Shown in pieces: positions 26,916 to 29,279 of a stretch of 42,647 nt of DNA. The notes beneath the pieces are model-generated. The model made no database searches. It saw nothing but the letters and a program-made list of their open reading frames with translations, and was not told where the DNA came from. Source of the stretch: an uncultured Bacteroidota bacterium. GTDB taxonomy: Bacteria > Bacteroidota > Bacteroidia > Bacteroidales > GWA2-32-17. The translations under genes and the position numbers were made by a program. Each line of letters begins with the position of its first letter. The first letter of the stretch is position 1. Location of the stretch: contig CAILUD010000070.1 in assembly GCA_903837285.1 (NCBI GenBank), positions 1-42,647 on the forward strand. Direction: 5' to 3'.

Positions 26916-27290
26916 TTAAGATTCAATAAAACTAAAATTCAAATCAATTAATTTAGAAAAACGAGTACCCGAAGAAAGCATATCAGAATCTTCTTTTTTA
27001 TAATACCAGTTTATTGCTACATTTTGTTTTTTTGCAATATTTTCGAGTATCAATAATATTTTTGCAATTTGTTTGGCCGATGCAGTATTAAAATATTCCA
27101 AAGAAAAATTAAAAACCGTAATGTCTAATGGATCTAAAGCATATTGGTTAAGCCAGATTAAAACGGGTTCGTAAAAACCAATTGCATTTTCGGGAAGTGA
27201 ACGTTCTGAAATTTGAAATACTTTATTTACTGAATCGAGAACTACTTTTGGTGTGTCCTCTTTAGATTCTATAATTAATGCATCTAACAT
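26916..27290 (-). CDS. SiaC family regulatory phosphoprotein (DUF1987)
   Basis: The 124-residue protein matches the SiaC family, with ISERSLPENAIGFYEPVLIWL-type sequence split around residues 27-47 and the segment EYFNTASAK, whose T69 aligns with the Thr that SiaB phosphorylates in Pseudomonas SiaC (position from memory). In Pseudomonas, unphosphorylated SiaC activates the diguanylate cyclase SiaD; SiaB kinase and SiaA phosphatase set its state. No GGDEF or PP2C gene lies in this window, so the target here is unknown. It starts 1 nt after the siaB-like gene stops (TAA-T-ATG), so the pair is translationally coupled. Confidence 0.85.
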   Translation of the reverse strand: MLDALIIESKEDTPKVVLDSVNKVFQISERSLPENAIGFYEPVLIWLNQYALDPLDITVFNFSLEYFNTASAKQIAKILLILENIAKKQNVAINWYYKKEDSDMLSSGTRFSKLIDLNFSFIES

Positions 27291-27291
27291 A

Positions 27292-28419
27292 TTATTCCGT
27301 AGTTATTACGGTTTGTAACGAAAAGAATGTGCACTCATCAGAAACGTCAGAAAAAGTATACGAAATAGGGTTTCCACTCTTAATACGTAAATCAATAATG
27401 CCTAAACCAGCTTTTTTAGAACTATCAATCTCAAAATCAAAAAGACATTTGTTAAAATAATTATCAAGTTCGTCCTGAGTTAAGGAATTTACTTTCTCTA
27501 ATTTTTCTTTTAACTCATCCGACTTACTTTTATCCACGTAATTACCAGTAGTTATTGTGTAAAATCCTTTGTGCGAACCTAAAATAAAAATACCAGGGAT
27601 TCCTAACATTTTCGATTCTGGAGCATAGCCATGTTTTACAATATTCTGAAGCATTTCTACTACTATATAAAAAACTTTCTTTTTATGGCTTATGGTTCCA
27701 GTCATCTGACCTTCCAAAGAACCCAGCAATACCATTAAACTTTCCTGATTAAATGGTCCGTTAGAAACCAGTAAAATATTTTCAGCGTTAAGGGTATTAT
27801 GAATGCTTATAATATTGTTAAGACTTTCTTCTTTGTTTTCAAAATTTCCTTCTAAACCTTCCAATGATGGAATTGTGTGCAAGTAAAAAAATGAAGAATC
27901 ATCTTTTACCGGCCTAAACTGGTATAGTAATTTGTTTCCTGATTTGCGGGCCATATCAATTAAACCCAAACCGGCTCCACCTTTTGCAGATAATGAACCA
28001 TCTTCCAAAACCATTTTATAATAGCTTTTCAATTCTTCTTTTTCTAGACTATTAATGGTTTCAATAAGATTTTTAATATAATCAATATTGTCATTCATTA
28101 CCATGTTTCCAGTGGTAATAAAATACTTATCCTCCTGTTTCTGAATTACAAACAACCCATTACTATCTGGCAAATCATTTTTTGCATCATCTTGATGGCG
28201 TGTAATATTTTGAAGGCATTCTACTAAAATACTATAAACACGTTTTTTAATTTTAGAGGAGTGTTCTTCTTTTTCGAGCTTGTTTTCTGTAAGGGAAAGA
28301 ATATTATCGGTAATCTCCTGCGTGAATCTTCCGCGATATACATATCCCAGATTATCCTTCTGCATGGCTTTAAACAAAGTCAAAACAAAATTCAGAAAAT
28401 CAGCGTTTCCAGTGTGCAT
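27292..28419 (-). CDS. SiaB family protein kinase with two tandem kinase domains
   Basis: The 375-residue protein contains the SiaB (DUF6272) GHKL-type ATPase fold twice. Half 1 (about 1-190) has N box VECLQNITRHQ, the strand YFITTGN and G box GGAGLGLIDMARKSG. Half 2 (about 200-375) has VEMLQNIVKHG, YTITTGN and KAGLGIIDLRIKSG. Both keep the Asn and Gly residues needed for ATP, so neither is plainly dead. SiaB proteins known to me have one such domain of about 180 residues. It should phosphorylate SiaC, encoded next. It has a good promoter and no signal or membrane segment. Confidence 0.82.
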   Translation of the reverse strand: MHTGNADFLNFVLTLFKAMQKDNLGYVYRGRFTQEITDNILSLTENKLEKEEHSSKIKKRVYSILVECLQNITRHQDDAKNDLPDSNGLFVIQKQEDKYFITTGNMVMNDNIDYIKNLIETINSLEKEELKSYYKMVLEDGSLSAKGGAGLGLIDMARKSGNKLLYQFRPVKDDSSFFYLHTIPSLEGLEGNFENKEESLNNIISIHNTLNAENILLVSNGPFNQESLMVLLGSLEGQMTGTISHKKKVFYIVVEMLQNIVKHGYAPESKMLGIPGIFILGSHKGFYTITTGNYVDKSKSDELKEKLEKVNSLTQDELDNYFNKCLFDFEIDSSKKAGLGIIDLRIKSGNPISYTFSDVSDECTFFSLQTVITTE

Positions 28420-28609: not shown

Positions 28610-28834
28610 ATGAAAAAAATTATAGTCTTTACAATCTTTATTTCGGTCATATTAATAAGCCTAAGTTCTTGTTCTGTAAGAAAATCTGGATCAATGCCAG
28701 AGTCGTCTAAAAAAGCAATGCCATCACCGGCTCCATCACCATCTGTAAAATCTGAAGTTTCGCCCGATAAAAGCGAGCCTGTGCCTGGTGCCGAAATATT
28801 AATTGAACAGGACAATAATAAGCCTCAGAAATAA
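28610..28834 (+). CDS. Small Pro/Ser-rich lipoprotein
   Basis: The 74-residue protein begins with a basic start, a hydrophobic stretch and the lipobox ISLSSC (Cys at 21). The mature part is short, rich in Pro, Ser and Lys (KKAMPSPAPSPSVKSEVSP) and probably unstructured. I recognise no family. An opposite-strand frame overlaps it almost fully but has no such features. The start codon sits directly behind a strong promoter box, so translation may begin on a leaderless mRNA. Confidence 0.65.
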   Translation: MKKIIVFTIFISVILISLSSCSVRKSGSMPESSKKAMPSPAPSPSVKSEVSPDKSEPVPGAEILIEQDNNKPQK

Positions 28835-29279
28835 TTTTGTAATTTTTATCAAGTCACGCTCGCATTTTGAATTGGTCACCTCTCGTTGCCTCTAATTTCT
28901 TTTATTTTAGATTCTTAGGTTGTTGCAAAGAAAAACAATAAAATCTTGAAATACGTTTTGAAAGAGCGGTGCGAGGGCTGTCCGCGAACGGTGTGAACTG
29001 CAATTTCTATACAATAAACATTTGAAACAAGTTATTATTGTTTAAGGAAGTTCTGTTTGTTTTTGTAATAAAAGAAATTGAAGTTGGCGTTCGTGGTGGC
29101 CTTTTTGGTTCTTTTTGGCGGTATCAAAAAGAATAAGAAAATAACATTAATACAATTTTAAACTACAACTTAGGGTTACCTTTAGTGAAATCGTTTCGCT
29201 CAGTAGGGGCTTGTAAATTGATTTTATGGTAAATGTATTTCTCATCATGTTAGCTTGGATTAAAATTCAAAACAGTTTT
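28835..29279. other. Long intergenic region with remnants of repeats
   Basis: No gene is convincing here. A 13-nt perfect inverted repeat lies at 28894-28906 and 29067-29079 (AATTTCTTTTATT and its complement), 160 nt apart. A short frame between about 29083 and 29136 ends FGSFWRYQKE, a peptide that looks like a decayed coding end. The GC content of 28965-29010 is higher than its surroundings. This may be an eroded mobile or REP-like element. Confidence 0.35.

Follow-up and report, generated by a model that had tools for sequence, protein, structure and literature searches.

A tandem SiaB-type kinase of Bacteroidota as a candidate asymmetric pseudo-dimer acting on the SiaC protein encoded beside it

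What would two SiaB-type kinase domains do in a single polypeptide? Among partner-switch kinases with this fold, those with solved structures, RsbW and SpoIIAB, are homodimers (PMC7340262). SiaB of Pseudomonas aeruginosa is reported to phosphorylate SiaC at Thr68, with Glu61 as the predicted catalytic residue, and to run with it as a 2:2 complex in size exclusion (PMC7647112). Here we analyze a 42,647-nucleotide stretch of DNA from an uncultured Bacteroidota bacterium, hereafter the window, which is the complete contig C70 of a 4.29-Mb draft genome and in which one gene encodes two such domains. The initial annotation, made from the sequence, proposed that the two halves form an internal dimer, or that one acts on SiaC while the other senses a signal or works as a phosphatase.

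The gene is read from the minus strand, the forward strand of the same interval carrying stop codons all along, and is organized as follows.

27292..28419, minus strand: tandem SiaB-type protein kinase, 375 residues, two DUF6272 domains, ATG start, open reading frame running from 28419 to 27292
27865..28419, minus strand: half 1, residues 1-185, with Gly147-Gly148 ahead of the G box and Arg158 kept
28192..28221, minus strand: N box of half 1, ECLQNITRHQ, residues 67-76, with the catalytic-type Glu67 and Asn71
28105..28119, minus strand: ITTGN strand of half 1, residues 101-105
27952..27981, minus strand: G box and lid end of half 1, GGAGLGLIDM, residues 147-156 (AGLGLIDM, 149-156)
27832..27873, minus strand: short linker between the halves, about residues 183-196, placed from the secondary structure of the model
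27295..27849, minus strand: half 2, residues 191-375, a diverged SiaB domain with the ATP core kept
27628..27657, minus strand: N box of half 2, EMLQNIVKHG, residues 255-264, with Glu255 and Asn259
27541..27555, minus strand: ITTGN strand of half 2, residues 289-293
27388..27417, minus strand: G box of half 2, KKAGLGIIDL, residues 335-344 (AGLGIIDL, 337-344)

Pfam DUF6272 matches the protein in two stretches (247.5 bits, E 3.1e-74, cut-off 26.6), as does the NCBIfam model SiaB_fam_kinase, NF038262 (269.3 bits, cut-off 85). In the profile search of the genome each half alone exceeds the Pfam cut-off, with 145.7 and 107.9 bits, and the halves align to each other with 34% identity over 175 columns (E 1e-30). 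Each half has a G box and an N box with its catalytic-type Glu and Asn. All the motifs quoted in the initial annotation, i.e. the N box, the ITTGN strand and the G box, occur once per half within the 375 residues, in agreement with its claim of two complete tandem SiaB-type kinase domains; a profile match limited to one half, named there as the result that would speak against it, was not what we found. The score for NF038264, the equivalog of the biofilm regulation kinase SiaB, is 143.4 bits and lies below the cut-off of 225, and by sequence the window kinase is a relative of this Pseudomonas-type equivalog, not the equivalog itself. Across 147 open reading frames, repeats included, the HMM gap separating the halves has a median of 17 and a range of 10-24.

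Two further features lie upstream of the gene. At 28610-28834 on the plus strand, divergent from the kinase gene, lies a 74-residue open reading frame which, judged by eye, begins like a signal peptide and carries an LSSCS motif of the lipoprotein type. Positions 28850-29275 form a 426-base intergenic stretch that is missing from the congeners L108 and L073, where the flanks meet with an overlap of 8-9 bases. Pieces of it recur in the same genome (24 match rows, itself included), and it therefore looks like a repeated inserted element.

The AlphaFold model of the tandem kinase (mean pLDDT 82.4, pTM 0.82) has a loop at the lid site in both halves, each modeled with low confidence (residues 141-150 with a mean pLDDT of 58, residues 331-340 with one of 56). 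A second half lacking the ATP lid, the other contrary result foreseen by the initial annotation, is thus not what the model gives. In a sequence search of the PDB, the SiaB stretch came from half 1 only (E 5.6e-13 to the SiaB crystal chain 6kko_A). Half 2 matched 6kko_A by structure alone, with Z 18.0 and rmsd 2.5 over 166 residues, the next matches being chains of UsfX, SpoIIAB and RsbW at Z 10.9 to 12.9.

The two-domain design is common to many Bacteroidota, usually along with its own SiaC. Among the own genome and 40 relatives, DUF6272 occurs in 22 of 41 genomes and at least one tandem protein in 17 of 41, including all ten genomes of the own family in this sample (27 tandem open reading frames, on fetched DNA). 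A sample of 149 genomes from the order contains DUF6272 in 64, and a tandem protein is present in at least 32 of these 64, with two domains in one open reading frame verified on DNA for each; 30 of the 32 were among the matches listed in the order sample and two come from the 41-genome sample. The count of architectures proposed by the initial annotation hence gives a form that is not rare. In a phylum sample of 198 genomes, 17 match DUF6272, 13 of them above the cut-off, and two, G000 and G085, carry a tandem protein (G085 confirmed on DNA). Scanning named genomes with the tandem alignment returned two domains in one open reading frame at all of the best 80 loci, three of which are cut by a contig end. 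The record titles of these 80 loci are mostly Bacteroidales, Salinivirgaceae or plain Bacteroidetes, with a few Sphingobacteriaceae or Flavobacteriales and three Chlorobi/Chlorobiota.

Other arrangements of the domain were also encountered. Two consecutive tandem genes, i.e. four SiaB domains, are found in L083 (3491-5738) and L122 (5947-8213), the second copy having a broken G box in its second half. In L230 (1880-3466) one SiaC accompanies two adjoining SiaB genes of one domain each, a two-to-one ratio without fusion, and the nearest tree rows of these SiaBs are each other and another single SiaB. L098 and L099 contain paired single SiaB genes in which the G box is altered to the GGANIGL type, together with one SiaC in L098 and three in L099. 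In L191 (633-2552), a protein of 639 residues carries one SiaB domain near its C-terminus, preceded by about 490 residues that have no Pfam match at E 0.001.

Directly following the kinase gene in the window is the gene of its candidate substrate.

26916..27290, minus strand: SiaC, 124 residues, starting one base past the kinase stop codon, Pfam SiaC 113.8 bits
27084..27086, minus strand: codon of SiaC Thr69, the equivalent of the phosphorylated Thr68 of Pseudomonas SiaC

Partners were counted in a set of 126 distinct tandem proteins, the window included, four pairs of which are more than 97% identical, using SiaB and SiaC HMMs built from the domains found, minus one 78-residue open reading frame and duplicate rows of the window. 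The tandem sets were gathered for being tandem, and the counts show what accompanies tandem proteins and not how frequent these are. For 87 of the 126, a separate SiaC gene lies no more than 400 nucleotides downstream on the same strand, with a median gap of 5 nucleotides between kinase and SiaC (70 measured, in an earlier set of 101). In another 20 a natural fusion joins SiaB, SiaB and SiaC in one chain. Fifteen have no SiaC nearby, and in four the contig end is reached. Pfam finds DUF6272 in two stretches plus SiaC in each of three fusions submitted to it, the AlphaFold model of a natural fusion has a pTM of 0.63 and gives no guide to the half that holds SiaC, and fusion to SiaC accounts for four changes on the tandem tree. 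Among the 107 SiaCs paired with tandem kinases, 93 have Thr in the phospho-acceptor column, 13 have Ser and one has Lys. A role of SiaC as substrate of the tandem kinase, as the initial annotation stated for Pseudomonas, fits well with its position as the next gene, its presence in the same chain in 20 of 126 proteins and a Thr or Ser acceptor in 106 of 107 paired SiaCs. Inspection by eye of the genes 3' of 12 of the 15 SiaC-less tandem kinases revealed no common neighbor; only L135 and L139, which are sister proteins, are followed by the same gene.

A SiaC tree was built from 107 tandem-associated rows, 41 single-associated rows (36 different, five loci being present twice) and two orphans. 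One branch separates the tandem-associated from the single-associated rows with an SH-aLRT of 86, in an alignment with few columns for many rows, and the kind of partner changes once on the tree, compared to a mean of 36.1 after shuffling. As the two kinds of SiaC fall on either side of one branch, kinase type and SiaC subfamily have travelled together. Separately, we searched for coevolution between each half and SiaC by mean-field DCA, on 107 tandem-SiaC pairs with an effective number of 92. The signal was rejected as noise, because a few columns were linked all-to-all and pairs within domains were not enriched.

Likely opponents of the tandem kinase are SpoIIE/PP2C proteins, judging from gene content and gene order. 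The own genome gives 49 SpoIIE/PP2C match rows, some proteins giving two, against three SiaB proteins and five SiaC. Counting every fetched tandem locus, whatever its downstream room, the operon end faces a directly convergent SpoIIE/PP2C gene at 15 of 125 distinct loci, with a few-base overlap in 7 of the 15. In the congener L108, whose tandem kinase is 97% identical to that of the window, a TPR-SpoIIE protein is directly convergent with SiaC, and a Y_Y_Y/PAS-SpoIIE protein lies behind it. In the window a PD40 gene occupies the place of this convergent phosphatase, and contig C70 has no SpoIIE match row, i.e. no SiaA-type PP2C was found near the operon. A 90% identical copy of the first L108 phosphatase, with a second phosphatase beside it, is located on contig C78 of the own genome.

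The SiaB complement of this genome consists of one tandem and two single SiaBs (L094 and L095), with a SiaC beside each. The pair in L094 (1719-5001, contig C9) directly follows two CheR-like genes and a CheB methylesterase gene. The other two SiaC genes, in L096 (972-4576) and L097 (4207-4593), have no adjoining SiaB, and that of L096 is convergent with a SpoIIE protein of 1057 residues. A GGDEF profile search of the own draft genome gave 0 matches, and the same search was positive in 8 of 14 control genomes, so that the output of SiaC cannot run via a diguanylate cyclase of the SiaD type encoded in this draft sequence.

How old the tandem form is can be approached through trees of the separated halves. 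When 36 diverse tandems are analyzed together with 12 singles, the first halves all fall on one side of a branch (SH-aLRT 99), and so do the second halves (SH-aLRT 88). This split is recovered again from 31 tandems and 40 singles, with values of 99 for the first halves and a weak 53 for the second. In free quick trees the singles sit between the two halves. Constraining both halves to one clade gives a likelihood better by 38.6 and a p-AU of 0.93, a topology that is not rejected and is no proof either. A single, old origin of the tandem form is consistent with these trees, and it may have occurred by internal duplication or by the joining of two paralogues.

The halves are not equivalent, and the regions in which they differ most are the following.

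Within 27295..27849, minus strand: half 2, with Lys-Lys replacing the Gly-Gly of the lid and Ile replacing Arg158
28273..28350, minus strand: strand beta1 and helix alpha1 of half 1, residues 24-49, corresponding by position to the RsbW dimer-interface element and showing the strongest half-specific divergence
27700..27777, minus strand: beta1/alpha1 counterpart in half 2, residues 215-240

We compared the 126 tandem proteins with 43 single SiaBs, one pair of which is more than 97% identical. The ATP core, defined as the N-box Glu, both Asn and the glycines of the G box (E, N, N, G, G), is complete in 36 of 43 singles and 121 of 126 first halves. Among second halves it is complete in 117 of 126, and a contig end cuts one of the other nine. 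The N-box Glu is present in all 126 first halves and in 124 second halves, the equivalents of N71 and N105 are present in 126 of 126 in each half, and Ser replaces Gly150 in five first halves. The lid behaves differently. Glycine 148 is found in every first half, in all 43 singles and in P. aeruginosa SiaB, but only in 19 of 126 second halves; the pair Gly-Gly at 147-148 occurs in 124 first halves, 33 singles and three second halves, in which Lys-Lys is commonest (31 of 126); and a basic residue at 158 is seen in all first halves, 37 of 43 singles and 18 of 126 second halves. The mean JSD between the halves is 0.44 in beta1 plus alpha1 and 0.45 in the lid, compared to 0.22 elsewhere (p 3e-5 and 0.004, respectively, neighboring columns being non-independent), and the 26-residue window starting at residue 24 ranks first of 148 in half-to-half divergence. 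Half 2 is also less conserved, with a column entropy of 2.30 bits vs 1.94 bits in half 1 (p 9e-8).

Over all columns, the two halves are about equally distant from the single SiaBs (mean JSD 0.237 for half 1 vs 0.229 for half 2, p 0.45). In beta1 half 1 is the further one, at 0.405 vs 0.205, and in the lid the order is reversed, at 0.185 vs 0.385; the lid alone clearly marks half 1 as SiaB-like. In RsbW, beta1 and alpha1 are described as forming the dimer interface of a SpoIIAB-like assembly (PMC7340262). With the interface placed by analogy to RsbW, we read the divergence of beta1/alpha1 and of the lid as that of two protomers specialized for each other.

Based on these analyses we propose, with a probability of about 0.53, that the tandem kinase is a covalent, asymmetric SiaB pseudo-dimer, in which half 1 would phosphorylate the SiaC of the next gene and half 2 would be a nucleotide-binding regulatory partner. 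The halves would pack as the two protomers of a dimer of the SpoIIAB/RsbW type. Half 1, as its conserved residues and the homology to P. aeruginosa SiaB suggest, would be the working kinase, binding ATP and phosphorylating Thr69 of SiaC. Half 2 would bind nucleotide as the regulatory protomer, with a variable and differently charged lid, and would position or gate half 1, possibly also the docking of SiaC. Gene neighbors and the precedent of SiaA suggest that the phosphate is removed by SpoIIE/PP2C phosphatases, and the phosphorylation state of SiaC would then control a partner other than a GGDEF diguanylate cyclase of the own genome. What other bacteria assemble as a matching pair of subunits thus appears to be built here into one lopsided chain. 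Of the options raised by the initial annotation, the internal dimer is favored by analogy, as the halves diverge most at the interface element of the RsbW type, and so is a split of roles between the halves, since the lid residues of single SiaBs are kept by half 1 and mostly lost in half 2.

The same comparisons allow other divisions of labor. Half 2 may be an active kinase too, because the ATP core is kept in 117 of 126 second halves, and the protein would then be a tethered version of the normal SiaB dimer, with doubled sites or a raised local concentration and with lid differences that are neutral or tune the kinetics. The near-universal Glu and the invariant Asn equivalents of half 2, its overall nearness to the single SiaBs, the action of P. 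aeruginosa SiaB as a 2:2 complex (PMC7647112) and the loci L230 and L098, where two adjacent single SiaBs without lid asymmetry are accompanied by one SiaC, all agree with two working sites. The near-absolute difference between first and second halves at positions 148 and 158 and the higher entropy of half 2 argue against them, as do the second halves with a broken core, which represent four changes on the tree, and we regard two active kinases as somewhat unlikely. The broken cores also bear on an exchange of roles, in which half 2 would be the part specific for SiaC and half 1 an allosteric part or one for another substrate. Where downstream room was available, the adjacent SiaC is missing in 6 of 7 proteins with a broken second half compared to 9 of 115 with an intact one (Fisher p 8e-6). 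The four changes, however, provide only three independent testable pairs, too few for significance, so that the association is a hint only; moreover, it is the lid of half 1, not that of half 2, that resembles the single SiaBs, and the exchanged roles appear improbable.

Some histidine kinases are bifunctional, and this is the sole precedent that we counted for half 2 as a phosphatase of phosphorylated SiaC, the remaining option of the initial annotation. It finds no support in our data and is in our view very improbable: half 2 keeps an ATP core of the kinase type, and the 49 SpoIIE rows of the own genome and the convergent PP2C genes at 15 of 125 loci offer other candidates for the reaction. 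In P. aeruginosa, SiaC is reported to be dephosphorylated by SiaA, an enzyme of the PP2C type (PMC7647112).

Extending the asymmetric pseudo-dimer to the lineage as a whole, we tentatively suggest a separate branch of partner switching in Bacteroidota, possible rather than probable at present, in which a catalytic half is combined with a non-phosphorylating, nucleotide-binding half that reads ATP/ADP or a ligand. Such a branch would have its own SiaC subfamily, with SiaC incorporated into the chain in several lineages, and an output other than c-di-GMP.

The kinase family, the SiaC partner and the general mechanism are already known from Pseudomonas, whereas a literature search of listings and abstracts, most subscription journals lying outside it, gave no paper on the tandem two-domain form, on the SiaC subfamily that goes with it or on the three-domain fusions. 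As in P. aeruginosa SiaB of the SiaABCD system (PDB 6kko), both halves belong to the same domain family, and the neighboring SiaC has a Thr phospho-site. Unlike Pseudomonas SiaB, which has one domain and dimerizes, the chain described here has two domains with fixed half-specific differences. The system further differs from SiaABCD in that the SiaC of the tandem kinase belongs to a separate subfamily and the own genome has no GGDEF match, implying that the target of SiaC signaling to be found in this organism is one other than that known. The single SiaB/SiaC pairs L094 and L095 of the own genome are of the same family and likewise have their own SiaC next to the kinase, but they are single-domain proteins with a Gly-Gly lid, and their SiaCs fall on the other side of the SiaC tree. 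A weak NCBIfam match in two stretches (52.1 bits, below the cut-off of 100) links the tandem kinase to the slr1658 superfamily regulators of cyanobacteria. The GHKL fold is shared with SpoIIAB and RsbW (half 2 with Z 12.2 to 1til and 1th8), which are described as dimeric and as phosphorylating a partner of the STAS type (PMC7340262). These are homodimers that also bind a sigma factor, and what each protomer contributes is hard to ask of them. The tandem kinase, in contrast, is one chain with unlike halves; with two different protomers fixed in it by evolution, each active site can be mutated separately.
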